Source: Aquamicrobium lusatiense
Lineage (GTDB): Bacteria; Pseudomonadota; Alphaproteobacteria; Rhizobiales; Rhizobiaceae
Reading direction: 5' to 3'
Length of the DNA stretch: 64,000 bases
Assembly (NCBI RefSeq): GCF_014201615.1
Contig: NZ_JACHEU010000007.1
Coordinates: forward strand, 6,114 to 70,113
The position numbers and the translations under genes were made by a program. Every line of letters begins with the position of its first letter. Positions within the stretch are counted from its first letter, which is position 1. Positions 48,516 through 64,000 of the stretch are shown piece by piece. Under the pieces are notes generated by a model, which was not told the DNA's origin, made no database searches, and worked only from the letters and a program-made list of their open reading frames with translations.

Positions 48516-49721
48516 TCATGCTGTCATCGCCACCTCAGCCCCACCAGTTTTCAGCGCTGCCATCAGCATCGGGCCGACGGAGAAGTTGCCGCTGCCTGCC
48601 TTTTCGGTGAGGGCCCGCAGATAACCTCCGGCTGAATGGATATGCTGCGATCGCTGAAGAATGCAGGCTATGACGATGGCAGTGCTTTCCTGCCCCATCA
48701 CCTCCAGCGCATCGGCATAGGCGGATGGCGATATGCCCAGGTAGCCGCGTACCTGTGCTGCGGTTGCCATGAAATCACGCCAGCTATCGATGCCATCAAC
48801 AGCATAGTCGCGGATATCTGGGCAGGCACGCAAAACCAAACCAAGCGGATAGGCTTTTGGCAGATCGAAGGGTTGGGAAGCTGGCTCGGTCTCGACCCTG
48901 TCTTTTTTTGAAGCAGGTTCAAATTCAGAATAAGCGTTTGTATTTGAATTAGATTGTTGCCGTTCATTTTGTTGGTCATTGCCGTTCATAAATTCAGTAT
49001 TCATATGCATTTCCAGCAACTTATCGATATCCGCGCGAACCTGTTCAAGGTCGCTGACGACAAGTTCCATATCCGCAAGTGAAGCGCGGCGGGGAATGGC
49101 CTCAACAACAGCGCGGAAACGCTGCCAAAGGCTCGTCCAGTCGCCCACAGCCTGCTCCCCCATAGCGGCCTCGATCAGCTTGCTGATATCGCGGCGGTGC
49201 AGCGTGATGCGCTCACGCATCAGCTTCAGCGCCTGGGCCTCGGCCCGTACCTGCTCGGCCGCCGCCCCAAACTCACCCGCCCGCACCAGCAAAGGCGCAA
49301 GCGAGAAGCCGAATGCCTCGCCAGGCTCCCCTTCCCTGCTTCTGCGCGCATAGCGCTTGCCATTGGGACTGTCGCGGCGAACAATCAATCCGCCATCCAC
49401 CAGGGCCGCCAGATGGCGCCGCAAGGTCACTTCCGACATGCCATGCGCCCGCAGGGCGAGCTGGCGGTTCGACGGAAACACGACAAGGCCATGTTCCTCG
49501 GATAGCTCCTCATGCGGATAAAACGACAGCAATGCCGCGAGGATGGCCAGCGCCCGGTCGCCCACGCCTATGATCGTCTTTCCTTCACACAAATCCCTGT
49601 AGACCTGCCACTTGCCCGCTGTCGCCCCTTCCGGGATAGCAGCTGCTTCCTGCTGCACTGCCAGCATGGCAAGCGACATCGGCCGCCGCCCAAAAGGCGT
49701 CGCTGCAATATGCGTATCCAT
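48516..49721 (-). CDS. repC: Replication initiator RepC
   Basis: The 401-residue protein is the essential initiator of repABC replicons. It shows the RepC N-terminal domain (ATAGKWQVYRDLCEGK, IIGVGDRALAILAALLSFYP, then FPSNRQLALRAHGMSEVTLRRHL with the winged-helix core). The C-terminal domain ends near VGPMLMAAL. The linker at residues about 240-275 is low-complexity (Asn/Gln/Ser/Glu-rich) and is encoded by an A+T-rich segment that probably contains the replication origin. It is the third gene of the operon and is preceded by the antisense ctRNA region. Confidence 0.95.
   Translation of the reverse strand: MDTHIAATPFGRRPMSLAMLAVQQEAAAIPEGATAGKWQVYRDLCEGKTIIGVGDRALAILAALLSFYPHEELSEEHGLVVFPSNRQLALRAHGMSEVTLRRHLAALVDGGLIVRRDSPNGKRYARRSREGEPGEAFGFSLAPLLVRAGEFGAAAEQVRAEAQALKLMRERITLHRRDISKLIEAAMGEQAVGDWTSLWQRFRAVVEAIPRRASLADMELVVSDLEQVRADIDKLLEMHMNTEFMNGNDQQNERQQSNSNTNAYSEFEPASKKDRVETEPASQPFDLPKAYPLGLVLRACPDIRDYAVDGIDSWRDFMATAAQVRGYLGISPSAYADALEVMGQESTAIVIACILQRSQHIHSAGGYLRALTEKAGSGNFSVGPMLMAALKTGGAEVAMTA
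48895..49010. other. Probable replication origin (oriV) within repC
   Basis: In repABC plasmids the origin lies within the repC coding sequence in an A+T-rich stretch. Here the segment TTTTTTTGAAGC... to ...ATTCATATGCAT region is markedly A+T-rich compared with its surroundings and encodes the low-complexity linker of RepC. The position matches experience with other repABC replicons, so this is inferred by analogy. Confidence 0.6.
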
Positions 49722-49780
49722 GTCCTTCCACCTTCAATCAGGCAAAAGAAACCCGCCCGTCAAAACGACAGTTTCAACGC

Positions 49781-49809
49781 TTGACACAGATTCACGGAAA
49801 TGCGATTCT
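49781..49809 (+). promoter_or_regulatory. Promoter of the antisense RNA (ctRNA)
   Basis: A -35 box TTGACA (49781-49786) and a -10-like GATTCT (49804-49809) are separated by exactly 17 bases, on the strand opposite to repABC. Transcription would start near 49816. This is the position and orientation of the incA/ctRNA promoter of repABC replicons. Confidence 0.75.
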
Positions 49810-49815
49810 CGGATT

Positions 49816-49870
49816 GTCCAGATACGAGAAGGGCTTCCGCGACGACAGTCGTTCGGGGGCCTTTTTCTTT
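49816..49870 (+). ncRNA. incA: Antisense counter-transcribed RNA (ctRNA, incA-type)
   Basis: A short antisense RNA is predicted on the plus strand in the repB-repC gap. It would start about 7 bases after the -10 box and end at a strong hairpin (about 49830-49862, GC-rich arms around GACGAC and GTCGTTCGG) followed by the T-rich run CTTTTTCTTTT (49861-49871). Such ctRNAs of about 50-60 bases pair with the repC leader and keep copy number low, and are strong incompatibility determinants. Existence is inferred from the promoter, hairpin and position. Confidence 0.75.
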
Positions 49871-49871
49871 T
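49830..49871 (+). terminator. Rho-independent terminator of the ctRNA
   Basis: A G+C-rich inverted repeat from about 49830 to 49862 pairs GGGCTTCCGCGACGAC with GTCGTTCGGGGGCC around the loop near 49846-49848, followed by a T-rich tract (CTTTTTCTTTT). It lies just downstream of the ctRNA promoter. Confidence 0.75.
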
Positions 49872-49877
49872 GCGGCT

Positions 49878-50861
49878 TCAATGCTCCTGTTCGGTTTTCT
49901 CCGACTTTCTGAATGCCTCATAAAGGCTGCTCAGATTACTCGAAATCCACTCGGCAAATCTGGGTCCGTCGGCTGCTCCAATTGCAAGAGTTGCCGTCTT
50001 ACCTGCCTTTTTCAGCCGTACGCTGACCTTCTTGTCCTGGGGTAGCCAGGCTGTGTCCGCAGACTTCGTGACAGCCTTGCGAGCAGGCTTGCTCCCGGCA
50101 GCCAAAGCGGCGTGCAAAGCTTCAAAGCGGGCGTTGCTGTCGAGTTGGCTGAACTCGGGTGTTGCGGCGACGGAGCCTGCCATTTCCAGCCGGCGAGGTA
50201 CCAGAAGGGAGAGCTCCACCCACCTCTCCCGGCCGATAGCCGGCGCCGGGCCGATTGCCTTGATGATATCTTCGGGGACACGGGTTACTGTCGTGATCAT
50301 CTTCGACACAGCCGCTTCGTTAGAGGCCAGAGCCGAACAGATGATGTCGCGGGTGTAACCAAGATCCTCGAGGCGCTTTGCGAATGCGGCCTTCTCGATA
50401 AAGCTCAAATTCGCCCGGGCAGAATTCTCCTGCCCCTGGGCGATGACATGCGCCTTGTCATCAATCGCTTTCACCACGGCCCGGACCTTGCGGCCGAGCT
50501 CTTTCGCCACCCTGACGCGACGATGGCCGAACACGATCATGTAACGACCTTCCCGCTCGGGATGAGGACGCACCAATATCGGCGAATTCTGGCCATTCTC
50601 TCTAATGGCTTCGAGAAGTTCCTGATGATGTTCCTGATCTTCGGAGAGACGGTCGGCAACAAACGAGCCATCGATCATCTCGGGGTCGAGATCCACCACC
50701 TGCTCGCCTTCGAGATAGGCATCGGCCTGCCGCGCCAGCTCGCTGACCGAGCGGATCATCGACTTGGACGCGCCACGCATGGGATAGGCTGGCGCATTCG
50801 AAGCGCCCTGCCCTTCCTCATTTGTCTCCATAAGGCCTGACAGCAGGTTCTTACGGGCCAT
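49878..50861 (-). CDS. repB: Partitioning protein RepB (ParB family)
   Basis: The 327-residue ParB-family protein binds parS sites and is loaded by RepA for segregation. Seen are the ParB N-domain (QVVDLDPEMIDGSFVADRL, ENGQNSPILVRPHPEREGRYMIVFGHRRV, then an arginine finger region) and the HTH (LEDLGYTRDIICSALASNEAAVSKMIT). The gene lies between repA and repC, 71 bases after repA, with a parS-like palindrome in the gap. Confidence 0.95.
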   Translation of the reverse strand: MARKNLLSGLMETNEEGQGASNAPAYPMRGASKSMIRSVSELARQADAYLEGEQVVDLDPEMIDGSFVADRLSEDQEHHQELLEAIRENGQNSPILVRPHPEREGRYMIVFGHRRVRVAKELGRKVRAVVKAIDDKAHVIAQGQENSARANLSFIEKAAFAKRLEDLGYTRDIICSALASNEAAVSKMITTVTRVPEDIIKAIGPAPAIGRERWVELSLLVPRRLEMAGSVAATPEFSQLDSNARFEALHAALAAGSKPARKAVTKSADTAWLPQDKKVSVRLKKAGKTATLAIGAADGPRFAEWISSNLSSLYEAFRKSEKTEQEH

Positions 50862-50915
50862 TCAACCTCTCCTGTTGTTGCCTAATTCGTTGAAACACAA
50901 CGGCGAAGACGTGTT

Positions 50916-50931
50916 TTTGTCGGCTGACAAG
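50916..50931. promoter_or_regulatory. parS-like palindrome between repA and repB
   Basis: The sequence TTTGTCGGCTGACAAG fits the repABC parS consensus GTTNNCNGCNGNNAAC at all central positions. It deviates only at the outermost bases. It lies just before the repB start, inside the repA-repB gap, a typical parS position. Confidence 0.72.
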
Positions 50932-50932
50932 A

Positions 50933-52141
50933 TCACCTCCCCCACGCTTCGTGAATAAGTCCGGCTATTTCCGAGTTCACACCATCCAGAGATTCCATCG
51001 CCCGCTCATAGGTCGAACGGGTCATGGTGTTCTTTTCCACCTCGTACAAAGTCTGCTTGGTGATGCCGGCATCGGATATGGCCGTGGACTTGAGCATCTG
51101 GTTTCTGAGGATGAATTCGCCAAACAGCGTTTGCAGGAAAGCCACCATCTGCGCCTGCGGCTGGTCCATCGGCTCATAGCGCGTGATCAGATAGCGATAC
51201 CATTCCAGATTGACCTCTGCGCCAGCGCTGCGGATCGGCTCCAGGATGTTGCCCAGCATCAACAGGAACTGGCCCATCGACATCACATCCAGCATCTGCG
51301 GATGAATGGTAATCAGCACCGACGTGGCGGCTGTCAAAGCGGCAATCGTCAGATAGCCGAGATGTGGCGGACAGTCGACGACCACAACATCGTAGCGGTT
51401 CTCCACCTCTTCCAGAGATCGCGCGATGCGCGTGAAAAAGGCCTTACCGGCATTGGAACTGCGGTCGGCCATCGCCAGCGGCGTATCGTACTCGAATTCC
51501 TGCAATTCGAGATTTGCAGGCACGATGTCGAGCCCCGGGAAATTGGTGGTATGAATGATGTCGGAAAGAGAGACCCTTTCGTCATCATAACGGATGGCGT
51601 CGTAGAGCGACTTGATCCTGTCGAGTTCGGGCTGGAAGCCATGCAGCGAAGACAGCGATGCCTGCGGATCGAGGTCGACGGCCAACACACGGTGCCCGGT
51701 CAGCGCCAGATACTGCGCCAGATGCGCGGCCGTCGTCGTCTTGCCGGAGCCGCCCTTGAAATTGACGACGGCCAGAACCTGCAGCTTTTCTCCCGGGCGG
51801 CGATGCGGAACATATCTGCGCGCTTCCGAGCGTCCGTACTGGTCGAGATACTGCCTGAGCTCCAGCATCTGCTGGGCAGTATAAGAGCGCCGGCCCGTCG
51901 ATGACGTTTCAGGAACGGGACCCTTGCCTTCGAGATGCAGCTTCTTCAGATGGCTCTGGGAAACGCCCAGGTAATTCGCAACTTCAGCCAGCGTAAACGA
52001 ACGCAGATCCTTCTTAGCAAGCGGCGGGAATCGCTGCAGGCTCAGAAGATGCAGCTTCTGCGAAATCTGATCGCCCTGCTCGAGAATGTGTTTCTCGAAA
52101 TGCAACGGCTGTCTTGCTGGTCTCGGTGAACTCACGTTCAT
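50933..52141 (-). CDS. repA: Partitioning ATPase RepA (ParA family)
   Basis: The 402-residue ParA-family ATPase begins with an N-terminal region that includes a MerR-like HTH (FTLAEVANYLGVSQSHLKKL, residues about 49-68). The ATPase core has the deviant Walker A KGGSGKTTT (about residues 130-138), DLDPQASL and DVVVVDCPPHLG. It controls transcription of the operon and, with RepB, segregates the replicon. Confidence 0.95.
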   Translation of the reverse strand: MNVSSPRPARQPLHFEKHILEQGDQISQKLHLLSLQRFPPLAKKDLRSFTLAEVANYLGVSQSHLKKLHLEGKGPVPETSSTGRRSYTAQQMLELRQYLDQYGRSEARRYVPHRRPGEKLQVLAVVNFKGGSGKTTTAAHLAQYLALTGHRVLAVDLDPQASLSSLHGFQPELDRIKSLYDAIRYDDERVSLSDIIHTTNFPGLDIVPANLELQEFEYDTPLAMADRSSNAGKAFFTRIARSLEEVENRYDVVVVDCPPHLGYLTIAALTAATSVLITIHPQMLDVMSMGQFLLMLGNILEPIRSAGAEVNLEWYRYLITRYEPMDQPQAQMVAFLQTLFGEFILRNQMLKSTAISDAGITKQTLYEVEKNTMTRSTYERAMESLDGVNSEIAGLIHEAWGR

Positions 52142-52534: not shown

Positions 52535-52747
52535 GTGCTGTGCCGGGTGGATGATGTTATGCTCGGCACGTCATTCGTCGGAATCGGGAACTTCTGTCGA
52601 ATGGGGAGAGGGGAAGCAGTTGCTTATGACGATCACGACTTCAATGAGCCGTCCGTCCGGCACGGTTTTTACATGGCTGATGGCATCACAAAAGTCTGGT
52701 GCGGGATCACCCGGGCCCGGTTTCATCAAAGCGATGGCCTGACCGCA

Positions 52748-53383
52748 GTGGAGAAATCTCGTCCGCCTACCCGCATTCAGACCAAGCGGCGCCGAAAAAT
52801 TCTGGAAGCAGCGCTGGAGATATTTTCCACGCATGGCTTTCGCGGCGCGACCATCGACCAGATCGCCGAAGCTGCCGGCATGTCCAAGCCCAACCTGCTG
52901 TACTATTTTCGCAGCAAGGACGAAATCCACAGCACGCTGATCAAGCGTCTGCTGGACGACTGGCTACAGCCTCTCCGCGATCTCGATGCCGATGGCGATC
53001 CGATGGCCGAGTTGCAGTCATATATCCGGCGCAAGATGGAGATGTCCCGGGATTTCCCGAGAGAGGGAAGGCTGTTCACCAATGAGATTCTACAGGGCGC
53101 ACCGCACACGCTGGAAATGCTTCAGGATGTGCTGAAACCGCTTGTCGACGAAAAGGTGAAGGTCATCGAAGGATGGATGAAAGATGGCCGTATCGCCCAG
53201 ACCGATCCATATCACCTGATCTTCTCGCTCTGGGCGACGACACAGCATTATGCCGATTTCGACGTACAGGTGAGGGCGGTTCTTGGGCCTGATCGCAGCG
53301 GAGAACGGCTGTTCGAAGATGGGGCACAGTTCCTCGAACAGCTTTACCTCAACGGGCTTTCGCCAGAGGCCAGCAGAAACTGA
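52748..53383 (+). CDS. rutR: TetR-family regulator, RutR-like
   Basis: From the GTG at 52748 the product is about 211 residues, close to the 212 of E. coli RutR. The HTH is RRRKILEAALEIFSTHGFRGATIDQIAEAAG (starting near residue 16), followed by KPNLLYYFRSKDEIHS. The ligand domain contains KMEMSRDFPREGRLFTNE, LVDEKVKVIEGWM and SLWATTQHYADF, all like RutR, which senses uracil. Convergent with the dihydropyrimidinase gene. The upstream part of the longer frame (52535-52747) has no RutR-like sequence and the start could also be the ATG at 52673. Confidence 0.88.
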   Translation: MEKSRPPTRIQTKRRRKILEAALEIFSTHGFRGATIDQIAEAAGMSKPNLLYYFRSKDEIHSTLIKRLLDDWLQPLRDLDADGDPMAELQSYIRRKMEMSRDFPREGRLFTNEILQGAPHTLEMLQDVLKPLVDEKVKVIEGWMKDGRIAQTDPYHLIFSLWATTQHYADFDVQVRAVLGPDRSGERLFEDGAQFLEQLYLNGLSPEASRN

Positions 53384-53440: not shown

Positions 53441-54895
53441 TCACACGCCGATGGGCATATGCTCCGGGGAGCGGGTGACAGCGCGTGGCGCGGTCAGTTC
53501 CTTCCATGTCGAAAGCGCCTTGTTGACGGCCTGGAAAGGCTGGCGGGCAATGAACTTGCCGCGTCCGGGCTTTGCTCTGGCAACGCCTTCGCCCCAAACG
53601 ACGTCCCCGCGCGAAAGCGTGTAGCGCGGCAGACCGGACACCTTCATGCCCTCGAAGACATTGTAGTCGATGATCGACTTCTGGTTTGCCGCCGAGATGG
53701 TCTTGCCCGTCTTCGGGTCCCACACAACGAGATCGGCATCGGCACCCGGCACGATAGCGCCCTTGCGCGGATAGATGTTGAGGATCTTCGCAATGTTGGT
53801 GGAGGTCACGGCGACGAACTCGTTCGGCGTCAGCCGGCCGGTTTCGACGCCAGTGGTCCACAGCATCGACAAGCGGTCTTCGACGCCGCCCGTGCCATTG
53901 GGAATCTTCGTGAAATCGTTGAGCCCGAGCAGCTTCTGCTTCATGGTGAAGGCGGCGTGATCGGTAGCCACCGTATGCAGCGAGCCCGATTGCAGACCCG
54001 CCCACAGCGAAGCCTGGTGGCGGGCGTCGCGGAAGGGCGGAGACATGACGCGCTGCGCCGCGTGGGCCCAGTCGGGATTGGAATATTCGCTCTCATCCAG
54101 CGTCAGGTGCTGGATCAGCGGCTCGCCATAGACGCGGATGCCCTTATGCTGGGCGCGGCGGATGGCTTCATGCGCCTGCTCGCAGGAGACGTGCACGATG
54201 TAGATCGGAACGCCGGCGGCATCGGCAATGGTGATGGCGCGGTTGACGGCCTCACCCTCGACATCCGGAGGCCGCGAATAGGCATGCGCCTCGGGGCCGC
54301 TCAGGCCGGAACTCATCAGCTTCTGCTGCATGGCCGCGACAAGGTCGCCGTTTTCGGCATGAACGAAGGGGATGGCGCCAAGCGCGGCGCAGCGCTGGAA
54401 CGAGGCGAACATCTCGTCGTCGTTGACCATCAGCGCGCCCTTGTAGGCCATGAAGTGCTTGAACGTATTCACGCCGCGCCCGACGACGGTTTCCATCTCC
54501 TCGAAGATCTTTTTCGACCAGCCGGTGATGGAGACATGGAAGGAATAGTCGCTGCATGCCTGACGCGCCGCGCGCTCCTCCCACTCATCGAGGGCTGCTA
54601 TCAGTCCGTCCTCACCGGGGATGACGAAGTCCACCACCATCGTCGTTCCGCCCGAAACGGCGGCATAAGTGCCGCTTTCCCATGTCTCCGCCGTGGTGGT
54701 GCCCATGAAGGGCATCTCAAAATGGGTGTGCGGGTCGATGCCGCCGGGAATGATCAATGCGCCTTCGGCGTCGATGACCTCATCACCCTTGAGATCCGGT
54801 CCGATGGCGGCGATGGTCTCGCCTTCGATCAGCACATCCGCCTCATAGCTGCGGTCGGCGGCGACGATCGTGCCTCCCTTGATTACTTTCGACAT
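53441..54895 (-). CDS. hydA: Dihydropyrimidinase / D-hydantoinase
   Basis: The 484-residue cyclic amidohydrolase opens dihydrouracil, dihydrothymine or hydantoins. Seen are the first metal-binding motif GGIDPHTHFE, the carbamylated-Lys region FKHFMAYKGA (near residue 145-155), VHAENGD, HVSCEQAHE and ATDHAAF (final Asp). The length matches dihydropyrimidinases. It follows the NCS1 transporter (same direction, 235-base gap with two hairpins), and together they make a pyrimidine/hydantoin uptake and ring-opening module controlled presumably by the RutR-like protein. Confidence 0.94.
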   Translation of the reverse strand: MSKVIKGGTIVAADRSYEADVLIEGETIAAIGPDLKGDEVIDAEGALIIPGGIDPHTHFEMPFMGTTTAETWESGTYAAVSGGTTMVVDFVIPGEDGLIAALDEWEERAARQACSDYSFHVSITGWSKKIFEEMETVVGRGVNTFKHFMAYKGALMVNDDEMFASFQRCAALGAIPFVHAENGDLVAAMQQKLMSSGLSGPEAHAYSRPPDVEGEAVNRAITIADAAGVPIYIVHVSCEQAHEAIRRAQHKGIRVYGEPLIQHLTLDESEYSNPDWAHAAQRVMSPPFRDARHQASLWAGLQSGSLHTVATDHAAFTMKQKLLGLNDFTKIPNGTGGVEDRLSMLWTTGVETGRLTPNEFVAVTSTNIAKILNIYPRKGAIVPGADADLVVWDPKTGKTISAANQKSIIDYNVFEGMKVSGLPRYTLSRGDVVWGEGVARAKPGRGKFIARQPFQAVNKALSTWKELTAPRAVTRSPEHMPIGV

Positions 54896-55045
54896 TGCTG
54901 AAGCCTTTCATTTTCATGCGGGTGACCGGGCGCGCGATACGGCCGGGTCGAACGGGGCTATGCGGGCGCTCATCTCATCTTTCGCGCTTGCGGCCGGGTT
55001 GGGGGAGCCGGTCCGCGCACCACCGCAGCGCCGGTCGGTGGCAGG

Positions 55046-55119
55046 AACCGCCGGCCGTCTGCCGGCGGTTTTCTTGCTGAGGCTGGTCATGGGAGCAGGA
55101 GACCTGTCCCGCTCCCATG
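55046..55119. repeat. Two hairpins between NCS1 permease and hydA
   Basis: Two perfect inverted repeats lie in this gap. Arms AACCGCCGGC (55046-55055) and GCCGGCGGTT (55061-55070) enclose a 5-base loop. Arms CATGGGAGC (55088-55096) and GCTCCCATG (55111-55119) enclose 14 bases. They could attenuate or stabilise the transporter-hydA transcript. Confidence 0.65.
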
Positions 55120-55130
55120 GAATTTTCGTC

Positions 55131-56561
55131 TTAGTCAGTGGCGACGGTGCCAAGCGCACGGCGTTTGCTGGTGCTGAGCTGGCAATAGATGACCGCCGAC
55201 AGCACGACGCCGACAGGCCAGGAGAACGGCGTCCAGGCGCTGATCGCAGGGATGACCGACATGCCGATGGCAATGATGCCCGAGACGACAAGGGCAATGA
55301 TGGCGTTGGTGTTGTAGCCGCCATTGTAATAATACTTGCCGCCGGGCGTATCGTCGAACAGAGCATCCGAATCGATTTTCTGACGCCTGATGATGTAGTA
55401 GTCCGCCATCACGATGCCGTAGAGCGGCCCCATCAGGGCTCCGACGCTGCCGATGAAGTGATTGACGATCACCGGGCTGGAAAACAGGTTCCACGGCGTC
55501 ACGATCACCGACAGAATGGCCACGACCACACCCGCCTTGCGGAAGGTGAAGTGACGCGGCCACACATTGATGATGTCATAGACCGGCGCGACGAAGTTCA
55601 TGATGATGTTGATGCCGGCCGTGGCCGTGCCGATGGCGATGATGGCCACCAGCAGGATGGCGATGCTGTCGATGTCCTTCATCAGCGCGATCGGATCGTG
55701 GATCGCCTCGCCATAGACCTTCACCGAGGCCAGCGCGATGACGATGGAGATGGCGCCGAAAGCCGTCGCGTTCAGCAGCAGGCCCCATGCGTTGCCGCGG
55801 CGCACCGAGGCCTCGTCGGGCGCGTTGCGGGTAAAGTCGGCAAAGTTCAGCGTCGGGCCGGCAAGATAGGCGACAACGATGAACATGGCGGAAGCCATGC
55901 CGAACAGGCCACTGTTATGCTCCACGGTGCGGTAGCTGAAATCGACCGACCAGCCGGCACGTGCCAGGACCCATACGGCAAGCGCGATCATGGCGATCCA
56001 GATGGCGGGACCGGCGAAGTCGGAGAGGCGGCGCACCGCCTCCATGCCGCGCGATAGCACGATGAGCTGCGCAAAGGACAGCACGAGGAAGCAGATCCAG
56101 CCGAGCGTCGAAAGGCCCGCGAACGAGCTTTCCGTCAGGGTTGCCGAGGATGGAAACACCTTGATGACCAGAAGCATCATCGCCGCGGAGGCCAGATAAG
56201 TCTGGATGCCGTACCATGCCACGGCAACGATGGCGCGCAGAATGGCGGGGATGTTGGCGCCGTAAACGCCGAAGCTGGCGCGCGCAAAGACCGGGAACGG
56301 CACCTTGACGCGCTGACCGGCCACGCCGCTCATATTGTTGGTGAAATAGAGAATGATGATGCCCGCCGTGAATGCGGCGATCATCTGGTATCCGCTCAGG
56401 CCCAGTGCGAACAGGCCGACCGCCATGGTGTATCCGCCGAGGCTGTGCCAGCCCGACATCCACCAGGCAAACAGGTTCCATGTCTTCCATGTACCCGTCG
56501 CCGTCTCCGGCGATAGCTCGACGTTGAAAAGTCGAGACGATTCATTTGCATGCTTATGCAT
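55131..56561 (-). CDS. NCS1-family transporter (pyrimidine/allantoin/hydantoin permease)
   Basis: The 476-residue membrane protein has about 12 hydrophobic helices. Family features are WNLFAWWMSGWHSLGGYTMAVG near the N-terminus, SFGVYGANIPAILRAIVAVAWYG near 105-125, and GPLYGIVMADYYIIRRQ near 390. This is the nucleobase-cation-symport-1 family (CodB, PucI, Mhp1). It probably brings a uracil-, cytosine- or hydantoin-type compound into the cell. The ATG at 56561 has GGGAGGAG 5 bases upstream. The 235-base gap to hydA has no gene. Confidence 0.9.
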   Translation of the reverse strand: MHKHANESSRLFNVELSPETATGTWKTWNLFAWWMSGWHSLGGYTMAVGLFALGLSGYQMIAAFTAGIIILYFTNNMSGVAGQRVKVPFPVFARASFGVYGANIPAILRAIVAVAWYGIQTYLASAAMMLLVIKVFPSSATLTESSFAGLSTLGWICFLVLSFAQLIVLSRGMEAVRRLSDFAGPAIWIAMIALAVWVLARAGWSVDFSYRTVEHNSGLFGMASAMFIVVAYLAGPTLNFADFTRNAPDEASVRRGNAWGLLLNATAFGAISIVIALASVKVYGEAIHDPIALMKDIDSIAILLVAIIAIGTATAGINIIMNFVAPVYDIINVWPRHFTFRKAGVVVAILSVIVTPWNLFSSPVIVNHFIGSVGALMGPLYGIVMADYYIIRRQKIDSDALFDDTPGGKYYYNGGYNTNAIIALVVSGIIAIGMSVIPAISAWTPFSWPVGVVLSAVIYCQLSTSKRRALGTVATD

Positions 56562-57116
56562 TAAGCTCCTCCCAGAATGGTTGCGTTGATGTCGTATCCT
56601 GCCCGGCACCTCCTAGGCCGCTGCGGGATACGCCGTTGTTCAGCTGTCGATAATGGTCAGCCCCCTTGCGATACACGCCACCCGTCTTCGCCCCAGCGGG
56701 GAGAGGCGGTTGTGGAATGATCCGTATGTCATGAGGGCTGGAGGCAGAGCCTCACCACAGGCACCGGCATGGTGCAGGAAGGGCGGGCTCTGCATGTCCT
56801 GAAATGCCTTGAAAGGCACTTTCGGGCATCTTGCGGACGGTGCGGCGCAGGCGATGGGAAATGGTATTGGCTGCGCGGATCGCGCCTTGCCGGTCACATC
56901 GGGAACTTCACGCCGACACATCATGTCGAATTCTCTCCCATATGCATGGCATCGGAGATTTCCTGCCCGGATTCTGATGTCCGGTTGAGGGGATCCCCAA
57001 GCCTGGCTCCGGCACCCATCTTCAGATGGACTCAGGATACCGAAGCCAAAGATAACGAAAATTCAGTGGGTTACCTTAGTCGGAAACATTCCGGCTGACG
57101 TTTCGTAAACACCCAC
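56562..57116. other. Divergent promoter region between the permease and the F420 operon
   Basis: About 555 bases with no supported gene, separating the minus-strand permease/hydA operon from the plus-strand F420 operon. Plus-strand frames at 56769-57098 have no recognisable domain. The regulatory features lie at its right end. Confidence 0.5.
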
Positions 57117-57164
57117 TTGACATTTTTTTATCATGCAGTCAAATTTTGATCAGATGATAAAAAA
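57117..57164. promoter_or_regulatory. Palindromic operator/promoter of the F420 operon
   Basis: Two nested inverted repeats precede the operon. TTGAC (57117-57121) pairs with GTCAA (57138-57142). TTTTTTATCAT (57124-57134) pairs with ATGATAAAAAA (57154-57164), a perfect 11-bp repeat with a 19-base loop. TTGACA could also be the -35 box. It is a probable binding site for a dimeric regulator; the classical RutR palindrome is not present in this exact form. Confidence 0.6.
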
Positions 57165-57179
57165 TGGGAGGAGGAACCC

Positions 57180-57296
57180 ATGAAGCAGGCACTCGCCACA
57201 GGTGCAGGCTTGCCACGGAGGAGGGGCGGAATCCGTATCCGCGTCAGTTCCGGACAAGGCATTTTTCTGCACGATCATTCTCCTGCGACCGTCTGA
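57180..57296 (+). CDS. Putative 38-residue leader peptide upstream of cofG
   Basis: An ATG with a very strong GGGAGGAGG site 5 bases upstream opens a 38-codon frame (MKQALATGAG... ending SPATV). It stops 11 bases before the cofG ATG, which has only a weak ribosome-binding site. Basic and Gly/Arg-rich in the middle. It could be a leader or coupling peptide for cofG translation. I know of no homologue, so its reality rests on the ribosome site and position. Confidence 0.45.
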   Translation: MKQALATGAGLPRRRGGIRIRVSSGQGIFLHDHSPATV

Positions 57297-57307
57297 CGGC
57301 CGGCACC

Positions 57308-58426
57308 ATGATCACGATCGATGACGTCTACGCGGCAGACCGCGTCAGCGAAGCCGAACTTGCGCGCCTGCGTCAGCGGGCCTGTGAAATCCGCGACCAG
57401 TACTGGGGACGGGAGATCACTTACTCCCGCAAGGTTTTCATCCCCCTCACCAATATGTGCCGCAACACCTGCGGCTACTGCGTCTTCGTCAAGCATCCGG
57501 GCGATCCGGCAGCCAACTACCTGACGCCCGAAGATGTGCTCGACATCGCCCGCCGGGGTGAGCGCCTCGGCTGCAAGGAAGCCCTGTTCTCGCTGGGCGA
57601 ACGCCCGGAGCGGCGCTACCCGGAAGCAGCCGCCATTCTGAAAGACCTCGGCTACGCCACCACCGTCGACTATCTGGTCGATGCCTGCCGTCTGGTTCTC
57701 GAACACACCTCGCTGATCCCGCATGTCAATGCGGGCACGCTGACTGAAGAGGAGGTGGAGCGGCTTGGCGAGGTCTCGGCCTCGATGGGCATGATGCTCG
57801 AAAATGTCAGCAAGCGCCTGTCGAAGCCCGGCCTGCCGCATCATGCCTGCCCCGACAAGGCACCGGTGTTACGCCTGCGCACCATCGAGGCGGCAGGGCG
57901 TCTCGGCGTTCCCTTCACCACCGGCATTCTGATCGGCATCGGCGAGACATGGTCCGAGCGCATCGACAGCCTGATTGCCATCAACGACATCCATCTGCGC
58001 CACGGCAATGTGCAGGAGGTGATCGTCCAGAATTTCCGCGCCAAGGCGGGCACCGCCATGGCCGAATGGATCGAGCCTTCCCGCCACGAAATGCTGAAGA
58101 CGCTGGCTGCGGCCCGCATCGTGCTCGATCCGTCGATCAGCCTGCAGGCCCCGCCCAATCTCGACGAGGAATTCGAGGACTACATCGAATCCGGCATCAA
58201 TGACTGGGGCGGCATCTCGCCGCTCACCAAGGACCACATCAACCCCGAGCGGGCATGGCCGGCGCTGGGCGAGCTTTCGCGCCGCACCTCCGCCAAGGGG
58301 TATCGCCTCGCCGAACGGCTGACCGTCTACCCCCGCTATCTGGCCGAGTGCCGGGAAGCGCTGGCCGGCCCGCTGTCCCGTCTTGCCCGCGCCGACGGTC
58401 TGGCGCGCGAACAATTCACGAGTTGA
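57308..58426 (+). CDS. cofG: FO synthase subunit CofG
   Basis: This 372-residue radical-SAM enzyme, with CofH, makes the deazaflavin core FO of coenzyme F420. The 4Fe-4S site is NMCRNTCGYC (C-x3-C-x2-C). Other features are SLGERPERRYPEA, HVNAGTLTEEEV, MLENVSKRL and ILIGIGETWSERIDSL, then PPNLDEEFEDYIESG, typical of CofG. The ATG at 57308 is chosen as the start of the conserved domain; a longer frame from 57164 would include the strong ribosome site of the upstream small peptide. cofH starts 3 bases after its stop. Confidence 0.93.
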   Translation: MITIDDVYAADRVSEAELARLRQRACEIRDQYWGREITYSRKVFIPLTNMCRNTCGYCVFVKHPGDPAANYLTPEDVLDIARRGERLGCKEALFSLGERPERRYPEAAAILKDLGYATTVDYLVDACRLVLEHTSLIPHVNAGTLTEEEVERLGEVSASMGMMLENVSKRLSKPGLPHHACPDKAPVLRLRTIEAAGRLGVPFTTGILIGIGETWSERIDSLIAINDIHLRHGNVQEVIVQNFRAKAGTAMAEWIEPSRHEMLKTLAAARIVLDPSISLQAPPNLDEEFEDYIESGINDWGGISPLTKDHINPERAWPALGELSRRTSAKGYRLAERLTVYPRYLAECREALAGPLSRLARADGLAREQFTS

Positions 58427-58429
58427 GCC

Positions 58430-59701
58430 ATGAGCATCGATCTCGAAGTCATGAAGCAGTTGGAAAACCGCCCGGATGAGGTTCTGACGCGGGCCTCCGC
58501 ACAGGTGCGCGCCATTCTCGAGCGCGCGCTGGCAGGCGGAGAAATCTCGCGCGAGGCAGGTGAAGTGCTGTTCAACACGGAGGGCGCGGACCTCTCCGCC
58601 GTGCTCAAGGTTGCCGATACGGTGCGGCGCGAGCGGGTGGGCGACAGGGCAACCTTCGTCACCGTGCGCAACATCAACTTCACCAATGTCTGCTACATGG
58701 CCTGCCAGTTCTGCAATTTCGGCGTGCGCAAGGAGGCCAGCGGCGCAGAGCTGCTGACGCCCGAACAGGTGGCGGCGCGTGCCGAGGAAGCCTGGAACCG
58801 GGGCGGCACCGAAGTCTGCATTCAGGGCGGCCTGCATCCCGACATTCCGGGCGACTATTATGTGCAGTTGCTGCGCGCGGTGAAGAAGCGCGTGCCGAAG
58901 ATGCATGTCCACGCCTTCTCGCCGTTCGAGATCTGGTACGGCGTGCGCAAGAGCCGCATGTCGCTCGACGACTTCCTCGCCATGCTGCGCGACGAGGGGC
59001 TGGGGTCCATGCCGGGCACCGCAGCGGAAATCCTCGACACCGAAATCCGCCTGCAGCTCACCCGCAACAAGCTTTCCGCCGATGAGTGGGAAAAGATCAT
59101 CCGCGCCGCGCACCGGCAGAATATTCCGACGACCTCGACCATTATGTACGGCCATATCGACGGGCCGTCGCACTGGGCCGCCCATATCGACCGCCTGCGC
59201 TCGATCCAGAAGGACACCGGCGGCTTCACCGAACTGGTTCCGCTCGGCTTCATCCACGAAAACACCCGCCTTTACCGCAATGTGCCGGGCGTGCGGCCGG
59301 GGCCTTCCATGACCGAGAACCTGAAGATGCACGCCGTGGCGCGCATCATGCTTCAGGGTTACATCGACAACATCCAGGCATCGTGGGTGAAGCTCGGCCC
59401 GGAAATGGCGCAGACCATGCTGGCCTGCGGCGTCAACGATCTTGGCGGCACGCTCATGAACGAGAGCATTTCGCGGGCAGCCGGCGCAAAGCACGGGCAG
59501 GAGATCACGCCGCTGGAGATGGTGCGCATCATCCGCGCCGCCGGCCGCATCCCGGTGCAGCGCAACACGCTCTACCAGACGCTGGAAGACTTCACCGATC
59601 ACGATCCTCCCGAGATCGAGCCACTGGTCGAACGTGCCTGTGGCGCAAGCCCGGTCGCTTTCCTCACGCAGGCAGAAATGCAGCAGGCGGCTAGGGGCTG
59701 A
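58430..59701 (+). CDS. cofH: FO synthase subunit CofH
   Basis: The 423-residue radical-SAM enzyme is the second FO synthase subunit and couples tyrosine to the diaminouracil precursor. Its cluster motif is NVCYMACQFC (C-x3-C-x2-C). CIQGGLHPDIPGDYY, MPGTAAEILD and NIPTTSTIMYGHID are typical of the CofH/MqnC-like group. It lies 3 bases after cofG and its stop is next to the cofD start. Confidence 0.94.
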   Translation: MSIDLEVMKQLENRPDEVLTRASAQVRAILERALAGGEISREAGEVLFNTEGADLSAVLKVADTVRRERVGDRATFVTVRNINFTNVCYMACQFCNFGVRKEASGAELLTPEQVAARAEEAWNRGGTEVCIQGGLHPDIPGDYYVQLLRAVKKRVPKMHVHAFSPFEIWYGVRKSRMSLDDFLAMLRDEGLGSMPGTAAEILDTEIRLQLTRNKLSADEWEKIIRAAHRQNIPTTSTIMYGHIDGPSHWAAHIDRLRSIQKDTGGFTELVPLGFIHENTRLYRNVPGVRPGPSMTENLKMHAVARIMLQGYIDNIQASWVKLGPEMAQTMLACGVNDLGGTLMNESISRAAGAKHGQEITPLEMVRIIRAAGRIPVQRNTLYQTLEDFTDHDPPEIEPLVERACGASPVAFLTQAEMQQAARG

Positions 59702-59704
59702 CGG

Positions 59705-60664
59705 ATGGAAACTGGCGTTCAAAAAGTGGTGCTGCTTGCCGGTGGCGTCGGTGGCGCGCGCATGGCCGAAGGGCTGATGCGCGCCCTGCCGGAAGGGGCG
59801 CTCACCGTCGTCGTCAATGTCGGTGACGACGACACCTTCTATGGCCTGCTCGTCTGTCCCGACATCGACACCATTCTTTATACGCTCTCCGACCGGATCG
59901 ACCGAGGGCAGGGGTGGGGCGTCGCCAACGATACGGTGAACGGCCTCAATGTCCTGCGCGATCTTGGCGCGCCGGTGTGGATGAAGCTCGGAGACGCCGA
60001 TTTCGGCCTGCATATCTGGCGCAACTGGCGCATGTCACAGGGCGCCTCGCTGAGCGAGGTAACGGAAGAATGCGCCACTCGTTTCGGTATCAAAGCCCGC
60101 ATCCTGCCCGCGACGGACGATCCCGTACGCACCAGGCTCATGACGGAGAAGGGCCTGCTCGACTTCCAGAACTGGTTCGTCGGCGAACGTTGCCAGCCGG
60201 CCGTGCGCGAAATCAGCTATGCAGGTGCGGAAGAGGCTGCCGCCAGCCCTCAGGCACTTGCCGCCATCAGGGAAGCAGACCTGATTGTTTTCGCCCCTTC
60301 CAACCCGCTGCTGTCGCTTGAGCCGCTCCTGTCGGCGAAGGCCCTGCGCGAGGCGGTTGCCGCAAGCCATGCGCCCCGCATCGGCGTATCGCCTCTGATC
60401 GGCGGCAAGGCAGTTAAAGGTCCGCTCGACAAGCTGCTTGCCGATCTCGGCCAGCCCGGCGGCGCTGCCGGCGTTGCCGCCCGTTACAAGGGCCTGATCG
60501 ACGGCTTTCTGGTCGACAGCGACGACGTCAACGACATCGCAGCCATCGAGGCCGACGGCATAAGCGTCCATGCCACCGACATATTGATGCGCGATCCCGC
60601 CGGAGCGGAACGCCTTGCCCGCGAGCTTATCGGCTTCGCTCCAACGCTCGGAGCGCGGGCATGA
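59705..60664 (+). CDS. cofD: 2-phospho-L-lactate transferase CofD
   Basis: The 319-residue enzyme transfers the lactyl- or phosphoenolpyruvate-derived phospho group from its GDP-activated donor to FO, giving F420-0 or dehydro-F420-0. Family signatures are LLAGGVGGARMAEGLM, NVGDDDTFYGLLVCPDIDT and DRGQGWGVANDT. Overlap of its stop with the start of the next gene is 4 bases. Confidence 0.94.
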   Translation: METGVQKVVLLAGGVGGARMAEGLMRALPEGALTVVVNVGDDDTFYGLLVCPDIDTILYTLSDRIDRGQGWGVANDTVNGLNVLRDLGAPVWMKLGDADFGLHIWRNWRMSQGASLSEVTEECATRFGIKARILPATDDPVRTRLMTEKGLLDFQNWFVGERCQPAVREISYAGAEEAAASPQALAAIREADLIVFAPSNPLLSLEPLLSAKALREAVAASHAPRIGVSPLIGGKAVKGPLDKLLADLGQPGGAAGVAARYKGLIDGFLVDSDDVNDIAAIEADGISVHATDILMRDPAGAERLARELIGFAPTLGARA

Positions 60665-62031
60665 CGGTCGCCATCGCCATATTGATGAAGGACCCCTGTC
60701 AGGCCAAGACGCGTCTCAAACCCGCACTCGGCAACGATGCGCGCGAAACGCTGGCGCTGCTCCTGTTCGAGAACACGCTCGGCTTCTTTCGCCGCTTCCA
60801 TGGCGACAATCCTCTGGCGGTGGTTACGCCATCGGAGCGCGTGGCCGAGATCGCGCGCGCTCATGATGCGACCGCGCTCGGCCAGAACGGAAAGGCCGGC
60901 ATCAACGGGGCGGCGGCCCGCGCCGCCGAATGGGCCCGCTCCATAAACGCCGAAAAGCTGCTCGTCATCCATGCCGACATCCCGACGCTTGAAGCGGCCG
61001 AGATCGCCATACTGATCGGGGCTTCGGACGAAGCATCTGTCGTTATCGCCGAATCCCACGACGGCGGCACCAATGCGATCCTGCTTTCGCCGCCCGACGC
61101 AATCCCGTTCAGCTTCGGCCCACGCTCGGCGGATGCACATGAAGTGGCGGCGGCTGGGAAGGGCAGGGGCTGCACGCGGCTCACGCTTCCAAATCTCTGC
61201 CGCGACATCGACACGCCACACGACCTCTTCTCTGCCTCCACCTCGGGCAGCATCCGCAGGCAGGACGTCAGCCTGTTCGCCGTGGCCGGCATCCCGGAGA
61301 TCGGGGCGGGTGATGATCTGCCGGCGGCGATCGGGCAGGCCCTCTCCGACATGGGTAGCGAGCTGATGCCGCGCGACATCGTGATCGTTGCGCAGAAGAT
61401 CGTCTCCAAGAGCGAAGCGCGGATGTTTGCGCTCGACGCCTTCGTGCCGTCGCCCCGCGCCCTCGAAATTGCGGCCGAGATCGGCAAGGACGCACGCAAG
61501 GTCGAGGCGATCCTCTCGGAATCCTCCGACATCATCCGCGCCCGGCGGCAGGAGCCGGACGGGCTTCTGATCACCCGCCACCGTCAGGGCTGGATCTGCG
61601 CCAATGCCGGCATCGACCAGTCGAATCTGGGCGAGGGCAGGGACGACATGCTGCTGCTTCTCCCCGAGGATCCCGATGCGAGCGCCGCCCGCCTCCGGGC
61701 CGGGCTTGAGGAGCGCTATGGCGTGCAGATCGGCGTCGTCATCACCGACACCTTCGGCAGGCCATGGCGTCACGGTCTGGTCAATGTCGCCATCGGCGTG
61801 GCCGGCGTGCCCGCCGTCGTCGACTGGACGGTGCGCGCCGACGCCTATGGGCGCGGCCTCAAGGCGACCTTGCCGGCCTTTGCCGATGAACTGGCCGCCG
61901 CATCCGGCCTGCTCATGCAGAAGGATGCCGGCCTTCCCGTGGTGATCATACGCGGCCTGCCGTGGAGCGACACGCCCTCGGCCAGCGCCGGCGACTTTCT
62001 TCGACCGCTTTCACAGGAGCTGTTTCTATGA
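60661..62031 (+). CDS. cofC-cofE: CofC-CofE fusion: phospholactate guanylyltransferase / F420-0 gamma-glutamyl ligase
   Basis: This 456-residue protein joins two F420 enzymes. Residues 1-200 are CofC (guanylyltransferase): [27 protein letters not shown] and [14 protein letters not shown]. Residues about 212-456 are CofE, which adds glutamate residues: [29 protein letters not shown], and [17 protein letters not shown]. The fused arrangement makes one protein supply the GDP-linked donor and the polyglutamate tail. Its start overlaps the stop of cofD and its stop overlaps npdG. Confidence 0.93.
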
Positions 62032-62705
62032 CCATTGCAATTCTCGGAGGAACCGGCCCGCAAGGGCAGGGGCTGGCACTCAGGTTCGCGCGCAGCGGCG
62101 TGGCCGTGGCGCTGGGTTCGCGCGATGCCGAACGAGCGCACGCCATCGCCGAAGACCTCAACGCGAAACTGACCGAGGCAGGCGGATCTTTCACGGCCAT
62201 TACCGGCGCGGACAACATCAACGCCGCGCAGTCTGCCGAGCGCATGGTAATGCTGGCCGTGCCCTTCGCCGCGCACGAGGCCACGCTGGAGGAAGTGCGC
62301 GCAGCACTCGACGGCAAGATCCTCGTCGATGTCGTGGTGCCGCTGGAGCAGGGCAATCCGCGCGGCTACGGCCCGCCCCCCGAAGGCTCGGCCACCGAGG
62401 CAGCCCAGAAGCTGCTGGGCGAGGGGGTCAAGGTCGTGGGCGCTCTGCACAACGTCTCCGCGCACTCGCTGAACGACCTGCCGACGCCGATCAATTGCGA
62501 CGTCTTCGTCTGCGGCGACGATCTCGCTGCGAAGGAAGAAGTGCAGGCGCTGATCGAGGGCATTGGCGTTCAGACTTACGATGCCGGCCCCGCCAAAAGC
62601 GCGCGCTGCGTCGAGGCCATCACGCCTTTGCTGATCCGCCTCAACATCTCGAAGAAGGTTCCCTTCTCCCATGCGGGTGTCCGCATCTGGGCGCCCGGAC
62701 ACTGA
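62028..62705 (+). CDS. npdG: NADPH-dependent F420 reductase (Fno type)
   Basis: The 225-residue Rossmann protein reduces F420 with NADPH or the reverse. Its start [20 protein letters not shown] and the NADP-binding LGSRDAERA segment are typical of Fno/NpdG, as are [13 protein letters not shown] and [14 protein letters not shown]. The ATG at 62028 overlaps the stop of the cofCE gene by 4 bases. It would supply F420H2 to the downstream oxidoreductase. Confidence 0.92.
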
Positions 62706-62784
62706 CGGGCGCGCCACCCAACACCAAGGGGTCTGAAGCGCGGCACCCGATCAAGTCCGCGTCGTTATAAAATGGAGGAAAACA

Positions 62785-63792
62785 ATGGAATTCGGAATTA
62801 CGTTCAAAGGCTTCGTCGAGCCCGACCGCGCCCGCTATCTGGTGCGTGCCGCCGAATATGCGGGCTTCAGCCATTGCTGGTTCTATGACTCGCATATTCT
62901 GTGGCGTGAATGCTATCCCGCCATCGCCATGTGCATGGAGCACACGACGAAGATGCATTTCGGCCCGCTCGTCACCAATCCGGACGTGCGCGACTGGTCG
63001 GTCGCCGGCTCGCTGTTCGCCTCGCTGAACAAGCAGAGCAACGGCCGCTTCGAGATTGCGGTCGGCCGCGGCGATTCCTCGCGCCGCGTGATGGGCAAGA
63101 AGCCTGCTCCGCTGTCGCGCGTCACCGAATTCGTGCAGAAGATGAAGGCCATGGTGCGCGGTGAGGAAGTCACCTATCCGGAGTGCCCGGAGCCGGTGAA
63201 ATTCCCCTGGGCCGTCGGCCACGACATGGCTGCCTGGATCGGCGCCTATGGCCCGCTGGCGCTGAAGGCCGCCGGTGAAGCCGCTGACGGCGTGGTGCTC
63301 CAGATCGGCGATCCGAGCCTGTGCAAATGGTTCACCGACCAGTGCATCGAGGCCGGCAAGGCAGCCGGGCGCGACATGTCCAAATTCCGCTCCATGGCCG
63401 CTGCTCCCGCCTATTTCGGCACCAAAGAAAAAGCCATCGAGGCGACCAAATGGTTCCCGGCCATGGTCGGCAACCACGTCGCCGACATCGTCGAGAAATA
63501 CGGCGCCGATTCCGACCTCGTGCCGAAAAGCCTCACCAGCTACATCGAGAAGCGCCGCGGCTACGACTATTCCAAGCACGGCCAGAGCGACAATCCCTAT
63601 CTCGACTTCATCACGCCCGACATCGTCGAGAGCTTCTGCGTGCTCGGCGAGCCGGAGGACCACATCGCCAAGATCCGGGAACTGGAGGCGGCAGGCGTCA
63701 CGCAGTTCAACATCTATCTCGACAGCGGCGAGGAAGAGGAAATCATCGCGCGCTACGGCCGCGAGGTTATTCCCGCCTTTGCGAACAACTGA
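62785..63792 (+). CDS. F420-dependent LLM-family oxidoreductase (Mer-like)
   Basis: This 335-residue protein is a luciferase-like (LLM) TIM-barrel flavin/F420 oxidoreductase close to the F420-dependent Mer/FGD group. It starts MEFGITFKGFVEPDRARYLV and shows GPLVTNPDVRDWSVAGSLFASL, RFEIAVGRGDSSRRVMGKK, and ALKAAGEAADGVVLQIGDP. The last gene encoding an F420 enzyme in the operon, it is separated from npdG by 79 bases and followed by a carbamoylase gene. The reaction is unknown; the context suggests a reduction in the pyrimidine or hydantoin pathway. AGGAGG-like AATGGAGGAAAAC precedes the ATG. Confidence 0.88.
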   Translation: MEFGITFKGFVEPDRARYLVRAAEYAGFSHCWFYDSHILWRECYPAIAMCMEHTTKMHFGPLVTNPDVRDWSVAGSLFASLNKQSNGRFEIAVGRGDSSRRVMGKKPAPLSRVTEFVQKMKAMVRGEEVTYPECPEPVKFPWAVGHDMAAWIGAYGPLALKAAGEAADGVVLQIGDPSLCKWFTDQCIEAGKAAGRDMSKFRSMAAAPAYFGTKEKAIEATKWFPAMVGNHVADIVEKYGADSDLVPKSLTSYIEKRRGYDYSKHGQSDNPYLDFITPDIVESFCVLGEPEDHIAKIRELEAAGVTQFNIYLDSGEEEEIIARYGREVIPAFANN

Positions 63793-63900
63793 TCTGGCCG
63801 GAAACAAGCCATGATCTGGTGCAGGCGACCGAAACCGGCCGCCTGCATCATGTCGACAAAAACCGACCAGCACTCCGAAATGCATCGAAAGGAACATGTC

Positions 63901-64000
63901 ATGTCCACCTCCGGCGAGAACCTTCGCATTGATCCGGACCGTTTGTGGGATTCGCTGATGGAGATGGCGAAGGTTGGTCCCGGCATTGCGGGCGGCAACA
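63901..64000 (+). CDS. M20-type hydantoinase/carbamoylase amidohydrolase, 5' end only
   Basis: Only the first 33 codons are in the window (MSTSGENLRIDPDRLWDSLM, then EMAKVGPGIAGG). The DRLWDSLMEMAK-type start is that of zinc-dependent M20 amidases that hydrolyse N-carbamoyl-beta-alanine, N-carbamoyl amino acids or allantoate. With the dihydropyrimidinase it would complete ring opening and decarbamoylation. It is the next gene after the F420-dependent oxidoreductase (about 108 bases), in the same direction. The gene continues past 64000. Confidence 0.78.
   Translation, partial: MSTSGENLRIDPDRLWDSLMEMAKVGPGIAGGN

Follow-up and report, generated by a model that had tools for sequence, protein, structure and literature searches.

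A candidate F420H2-dependent uracil reductase encoded with F420 synthesis genes in Aquamicrobium lusatiense, and its probable exchange with dihydropyrimidine dehydrogenase in Proteobacteria

Introduction

Why Proteobacteria make coenzyme F420 is posed as a question in the accessible text of a 2021 review, which also states that no bacterial F420-dependent reductase or F420-reducing dehydrogenase from outside Actinobacteria had been the subject of experiments (PMC8498797). This question is touched by the 64,000-nucleotide stretch of contig NZ_JACHEU010000007.1 of Aquamicrobium lusatiense (hereafter the window), in which an F420 synthesis operon ends in a gene for a luciferase-like monooxygenase (LLM) family enzyme and lies among genes of pyrimidine or hydantoin breakdown. 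A reading made from the DNA letters alone (the sequence-only reading) had named here a RutR-like regulator, a dihydropyrimidinase, an NCS1 permease, a full F420 operon, the LLM enzyme and the start of an M20 hydrolase, all of which were confirmed, and the absence of PreAT from the window, which it had also noted, was confirmed. Here, we propose that the LLM enzyme, a member of TIGR03842, is very probably an F420H2-dependent reductase of uracil, and likely of thymine, catalysing the first step of the reductive pathway, and that it usually replaces the dihydropyrimidine dehydrogenase PreTA and serves in this strain as a second, likely plasmid-borne route.

Results

The LLM enzyme is a predicted F420H2 user

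The window LLM protein matched TIGR03842 (F420_CPS_4043) over its full length (profile positions 1-329 of 329) with 483 bits against a cut-off of 295. Its luciferase-like barrel is close to those of the solved F420-dependent hydride transferases, and the enzyme is predicted to use F420H2. In the structural comparison the model was Mer-like, Mer standing ahead of RutA among the at most 50 matches listed, and the identity with Mer (8qq8, 8qpl and 1z69) was 26-28%. The Mer function itself was rejected, as TIGR03555 gave 123 bits against a cut-off of 349 and Glu6 is not kept. No RutA model was present among the 16 NCBIfam families that the window LLM matched at E 0.001.

In the proposed pathway, CofG, CofH, CofD and the fused CofC-CofE would make F420, NpdG would reduce it with NADPH, and the LLM enzyme would transfer a hydride from F420H2 to the pyrimidine at C6 while C5 takes a proton; C6, which lies beside N1, would be chemically like the iminium carbon reduced by Mer. 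Dihydropyrimidinase would open the dihydrouracil, and the M20 hydrolase would free beta-alanine, CO2 and ammonia. The RutR-like regulator would let go of its sites when uracil is present, and in most LLM-carrying genomes the LLM enzyme would stand in for PreTA.

LLM and PreA rarely share a genome

Relatives of the LLM protein were encoded in 396 stretches of the genome collection, and a cluster unique to its own genome was therefore rejected; the best 80 of these stretches were analysed as loci. The search for PreA was given 42 of the 80 loci and covered 41 genomes (that of L069 was left out), the remaining 38 loci, mostly from Devosia, not being included. PreA exceeded its cut-off of 335 bits in two of the 41 genomes, A. 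defluvii and Paraburkholderia sp. BCC1884, when matches below the cut-off were scored as absent, all 41 genomes having some match at E 0.001. Dihydropyrimidinase exceeded its cut-off in all 41, with a partial match in G020 and one with an internal stop in G021.

Two orders were searched more widely, a loose first pass picking the candidates, of which only some per genome were scored. In the Marinomonas order (244 genomes) we found LLM in 11 genomes, PreA in 15 and dihydropyrimidinase in 24; LLM and PreA occurred together in none, LLM and dihydropyrimidinase in 10, and the 24 dihydropyrimidinase genomes were made up of 10 with LLM, nine with PreA and five with neither. In the order of the window's own genome (297 genomes) the counts were 24, 108 and 192, respectively; dihydropyrimidinase was present in all 24 LLM genomes and PreA in two of them (the own genome, G000, and G540), compared with 103 of the 168 other dihydropyrimidinase genomes. 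Fisher tests gave p 0.002 within the 24 dihydropyrimidinase genomes of the first order and p 7e-7 in the second, values that overstate independence as the genomes are related, and therefore the contrasts within genera weigh more.

PreTA and the F420-LLM set are exchanged within genera

Such contrasts were seen under two genus labels. Under g54, PreA without LLM was found in G332, G403, G432 and G457 and LLM without PreA in G369; under g88, PreA without LLM was found in G408 and G557 and LLM without PreA in G523. The gene orders were compared in 16 stretches, the argument coming mainly from L098, L099, L100, L104, L105, L107 and L108. In two g54 stretches (L104 and L105) PreT-PreA is accompanied by a pair of RutR-like matches on the opposite strand, by aptA-mmsA-M20-dihydropyrimidinase and by a match of ATP-binding cassette (ABC) type, and in a third (L099) dihydropyrimidinase-M20-mmsA is divergent from cofGHDCE-npdG-LLM, with no aptA match there. 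Thus, sister species of g54 hold either PreTA or the F420-LLM set at the same operon. In g88, PreT-PreA sits between RutR and a nucleoside-hydrolase match (L107); in G523 the RutR and nucleoside-hydrolase matches are 0.9 kb apart with no PreTA between them (L108), and its LLM gene is on another contig (L100), with CofE and a putative F420-0 transporter. In L098, from the window's own order, a single strand carries aptA-mmsA-M20-dihydropyrimidinase, an ABC-type match, about 3 kb of unlabelled DNA and cofGHDCE-npdG-LLM. The dihydropyrimidinase gene of L101 lies about 12 kb before cofGHDCE-npdG-LLM, and L103 has LLM with NpdG, its operon from aminotransferase to dihydropyrimidinase being on a separate contig (L112). 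L106 and L113 served as PreA-type comparators.

Neighbours of the LLM gene point to uracil and beta-alanine

The 80 loci were sorted into groups; both the groups and the score limits were set by us, and the names of the neighbours rest on single members that were scanned. The flanks of the 28 gammaproteobacterial loci contained CofG (24), M20 (25), RutR-like (27), NCS1 (20) and dihydropyrimidinase (7) matches, together with aminotransferase (5), MmsA-like (5), PntB (4), cytosine deaminase (3), cytosine permease (3) and Upp (2). Three further loci of similar kind (L009, L058 and L060) had CofG in all three and dihydropyrimidinase, M20, NCS1 and RutR-like matches in two each. The 42 type B loci, mostly from Devosia, were characterised by an F420-dependent glucose-6-phosphate-dehydrogenase type enzyme (35) by the binding protein of a putative F420-0 transporter (39) and by a permease (40); nucleoside hydrolase was present in nine and CofG in none. 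The seven type C loci, mostly from Rhizobiaceae, had the glucose-6-phosphate enzyme in all seven and CofG in six. PreA and PreT were found in none of the 80 loci, some of which are shortened by contig ends. Among the comparison stretches, L102 is a type B locus, and L109, L110 and L111 are the three pieces of G540, in which PreTA, the operon and a type B LLM lie separately.

Among L012-L059, the type B loci (for example L012 7044-10996) have the putative F420-0 ABC transporter, CofE and F420-dependent glucose-6-phosphate dehydrogenase beside LLM, with no cofG, cofH or cofD in their flanks; their carriers may possibly scavenge an F420 precursor from other bacteria. Genes for NAD(P) transhydrogenase were observed beside the cluster in L058, L072, L078, L082, L084 and L115, that for alanine dehydrogenase also in L058, which could hint at a local supply of NADPH to NpdG and of pyruvate to the aminotransferase. 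Matches to LLM at E 1e-80 were present in 11 records of the plasmid collection, 10 from Leisingera and one from Paracoccus. The complete plasmid of Leisingera aquaemixtae carries cofGHDCE-npdG-LLM with a TetR gene and, divergent from these, NCS1-hydA-Zn hydrolase-aminotransferase-pntB-pntA, and a plasmid of Paracoccus alcaliphilus (L114 14001-21763) carries cofGHDCE-npdG-LLM followed by an ABC transporter and adenosylcobinamide amidohydrolase.

RutR-type sites precede F420 and LLM genes

The accessible text of published work describes RutR as binding a palindrome of about 16 bases and releasing it with uracil (PMC10891134, PMC6245113), and names W77, Y97, W167, Q171 and Q179 as its uracil contacts (PMC10891134). 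All five contacts of E. coli RutR are kept in the window protein, which matched E. coli RutR (6z1b) in the PDB at E 5e-56 and scored below the cut-offs of the RutR models (228 of 368 bits with TIGR03613, and 205 of 230). Sites were scanned with a pattern that we take to be the E. coli RutR operator. The CofG motif was found in 36 of 84 sequences, and the 36 promoters fell into 21 similarity groups, each represented by its first name; sites with at most three mismatches in 14 preceded CofG in 14 of the 21 groups, compared with 629 half-site permutations that averaged 0.28 and reached 9 at most. L101, which did not yield the motif, was not counted, though a one-mismatch site precedes its cofG. 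In type B, all 42 loci had a site 36-102 bases ahead of the LLM start, with at most two mismatches in 41 (permutation maximum 17); these loci were chosen by us from the 80 and are related, so they are not independent.

The near-exclusion with PreA, the exchange within genera, the beta-alanine and cytosine/uracil neighbours and the RutR-type sites together support, at the level of the family, the proposal of the sequence-only reading that an F420H2-fed LLM enzyme acts in place of PreTA. By the standard of evidence from sequence alone, F420H2-dependent reduction of pyrimidines is strongly supported for the family. The part of that proposal concerning this strain is not supported, as its genome has PreA and a PreT-type gene (see below).

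The locus and its plasmid-like context

The features at the window end are collected in Table 1; the RutR-like gene lies just ahead of position 53441, at which the region named in the sequence-only reading begins. The genes from cofG to LLM follow one another in the same direction, separated by 3, 3, -4, about -4 and 79 bases, and 108 bases separate LLM from the M20 start; this close spacing from cofG through M20 suggests a single transcript of the F420, LLM and M20 genes. The readable sequence stops at window position 64000, the contig end (G000:C7:70113), so that the M20 start comprises the first 33 codons only. A whole M20 relative from L063 exceeded the cut-offs of TIGR01879 and PRK09290.1-3, TIGR01879 being a hydantoinase/carbamoylase family that does not fix the substrate. 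The F420 cluster adjoins repC, repB and repA (48516-52141, - strand), all three of which exceed a repABC model cut-off, and because of these genes the 70-kb contig is probably a plasmid. Further upstream, at 43727-46837 (+), a 1036-aa open frame was read by eye as PHP-type hydrolase-like at its start and UvrD-type helicase-like in the remainder.

Table 1. Features at the end of the window, with the profile matches that name them.
Feature	Position	Strand	Evidence
RutR-like TetR regulator	52535..53383	+	PF08362 over cut-off; homology starts near 52751
Dihydropyrimidinase / D-hydantoinase	53441..54895	-	TIGR02033, 579 bits (cut-off 393)
NCS1-family nucleobase-type permease	55131..56609	-	PF02133, 270 bits
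Possible RutR-type operator	57146..57161		NCS1/cofG divergent region; 3 of 14 mismatches, weak alone
cofG	57164..58426	+	TIGR03550, 448 bits (cut-off 213); true start likely about 57308
cofH	58430..59701	+	TIGR03551, 499 bits (cut-off 374)
cofD	59705..60664	+	TIGR01819, 296 bits (cut-off 257)
cofC-cofE fusion, 456 aa	60661..62031	+	CofC: TIGR03552, residues 6-197, 135 bits (cut-off 105); CofE: TIGR01916, residues 204-455, 259 bits (cut-off 181)
npdG, NADPH:F420 reductase	62028..62705	+	TIGR01915, 215 bits (cut-off 150); open reading frame from 61962; the matched part has its first methionine at 62028
TIGR03842 LLM enzyme, predicted F420H2-dependent uracil/thymine reductase	62785..63792	+	
M20 Zn-dependent amidohydrolase start (carbamoylase type)	63901..64000	+	Open frame, cut at the contig end

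The own genome also encodes PreTA

A profile search of the own genome detected PreA on contig C5 (731 bits against the cut-off of 335), with a GltD-type gene upstream in the PreT position (306 bits with TIGR01316, its best model, whose cut-off it does not reach) and, downstream, an omega-aminotransferase of AptA type (768 bits; cut-off 500); a second dihydropyrimidinase was found at the end of contig C1. Operator-like sites lie 72 bases before preT (three mismatches) and 24 bases before the aminotransferase gene (two mismatches). A strain without PreTA was thus rejected, and the replacement of PreAT claimed for this strain by the sequence-only reading, which by its own account a PreAT operon elsewhere in the genome would refute, is not supported, because PreA with the PreT-type gene, the aminotransferase, an M20 start and the second dihydropyrimidinase are present on other contigs. 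The last 95 bases of the window (63906-64000, the M20 start) recur without any difference, as the reverse complement, at C5:1-95 (L008 1-95), which lies just downstream of the aminotransferase gene, and in our own reading the translation of the C1 end shows an apparent M20 tail just before dihydropyrimidinase. The genome thus holds the M20 start twice, behind PreT-PreA-aminotransferase as well as behind the LLM gene, with the assembly broken at the repeat. The PreTA and LLM routes would share one hydrolase substrate. The complete M20 gene was not found in the own assembly, where only two distant relatives of 34% and 28% identity were matched, which is consistent with a collapsed repeat. The LLM contig of A. 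defluvii was also observed to stop at about the same M20 place.

The F420-LLM cluster of this strain is therefore likely to be an additional route beside PreTA. It is possible, though on balance doubtful, that in this strain only, and compatibly with the family-level reading, the cluster came in recently as a passenger, redundant or silent, with all reduction of pyrimidines left to PreTA, as the operator-like site before preT, the seven other drawn genomes of the own genus label that have PreA and no LLM, and the adjoining repABC genes would fit; against this, no open frame of the cluster is interrupted before the contig end, and A. defluvii, whose LLM is 95% identical, keeps both routes.

Other substrates and steps, and points against uracil reduction

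A different imported heterocycle, such as hydantoin, an allantoin relative or a 5-substituted pyrimidine, is an improbable substrate, in which case dihydropyrimidinase and M20 would be a hydantoinase and a carbamoylase. The TIGR02033 and M20 models alone do not separate pyrimidine from hydantoin enzymes, the window NCS1 permease, which was under the cut-offs of all five NCBIfam models that it matched, scores best with the allantoin permease model, and a putative F420-dependent LLM replaces yanthine reductase in Chloroflexota uric-acid clusters, as far as the accessible text describes (PMC12507026). However, the AptA, MmsA, cytosine deaminase, cytosine permease and Upp neighbours of the relatives, the exchange with PreTA in one genus, and the RutR-type sites together with the kept uracil pocket of the regulator point to uracil or thymine. 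The uracil or thymine named in the sequence-only reading is thus favoured, and its hydantoin is less supported. Slightly less probable still is a later, disposal step catalysed by an F420H2-dependent malonate semialdehyde or methylmalonate semialdehyde reductase, for which speak the alcohol and sugar dehydrogenases among the solved F420-dependent LLM relatives and the semialdehyde expected from the AptA-type aminotransferase adjoining the cluster in some relatives, but which leaves the rarity of PreA in LLM genomes unexplained and would act where several operons already hold an MmsA-type semialdehyde dehydrogenase.

Besides the relatedness of the genomes, several observations weigh against F420H2-dependent uracil reduction by the LLM enzyme. 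Its alignment has Thr or Cys at the position of the Mer catalytic Glu6 in 16 of 16 rows, and the solved F420 LLM enzymes work on C-O and C=N bonds. Both LLM and PreA are carried by A. defluvii, Paraburkholderia sp. BCC1884, G540 and the own genome, which therefore do not need LLM to use uracil; PreA-like matches below the cut-off reached 219 bits in G035 (nearly full length), 149 in G009 and 115 in G002. One of the 11 LLM genomes of the Marinomonas order (G146) had no dihydropyrimidinase over the cut-off, as was the case in six of the 15 PreA genomes of that order. No dihydropyrimidinase was found in the flanks of the 42 type B and seven type C loci, nor an annotated one (hydA) within 14 kb of the Paracoccus alcaliphilus plasmid cluster. 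With regard to regulation, seven of the 21 promoter groups (L009, L010, L058, L060, L061, L072 and L098) and the Leisingera stretch had no RutR-type site within three mismatches, and the window site at 57146-57161 is weak, six such matches being present in the 64 kb against 1.6 expected. The group of the window is represented by L009, which fails with four mismatches where the window itself has three; L010 and L011, which also fail, carry a two-mismatch site a little beyond the scanned stretch; and L058 has two RutR-type sites before its dihydropyrimidinase gene instead.

Discussion

The locus offers one concrete and testable answer, pyrimidine breakdown, to the question of why Proteobacteria make F420. 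We consider it probable that a luciferase-like F420H2-dependent uracil reductase replaced dihydropyrimidine dehydrogenase several times in Proteobacteria, that the uracil-sensing RutR switches on F420 production, and that these bacteria make F420, or import its precursor, chiefly to degrade pyrimidines. If true, the hypothetical family TIGR03842 would gain a function, a central catabolic step would gain a further electron donor and an unrelated protein fold, and the synthesis of a cofactor would come under the control of a nucleobase sensor. No report of catabolic F420-dependent reduction of uracil or thymine was found among the papers listed from the open-access literature searched, subscription papers and preprints lying outside it, so novelty is unproven; the names TIGR03842 and CPS_4043 returned no papers in the same literature.

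A known case of related function comes from antibiotic biosynthesis. SSGG-03002 / NpsU of the mureidomycin and napsamycin clusters is described, in the accessible text, as a putative F420/FMN-dependent (FMN, flavin mononucleotide) oxidoreductase needed for the C5-C6 reduction of uracil, for which an in vitro assay failed (PMC10714638). The reduction is the one proposed here, the biosynthetic role differs, and the likeness is one of described function. An LLM enzyme has likewise been put forward as the substitute for a different reductase (YgfK or UacX) in a pathway acting on the purine ring, namely the putative F420-dependent yanthine reductase of Chloroflexota, which differs in substrate and phylum and which the accessible text proposes from gene neighbourhood only (PMC12507026). 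The window LLM model resembles Mer in fold, whereas the catalytic Glu6 of Mer is replaced by Thr or Cys. RutA, an FMN-dependent uracil monooxygenase that opens the ring oxidatively, differs in that the window LLM matched no RutA model. With PreT-PreA, the F420-LLM set would have in common the predicted step and the downstream genes; PreA, however, is an iron-sulfur flavoprotein related to dihydroorotate dehydrogenases, whereas the LLM enzyme is a luciferase-type barrel and a predicted user of F420H2.

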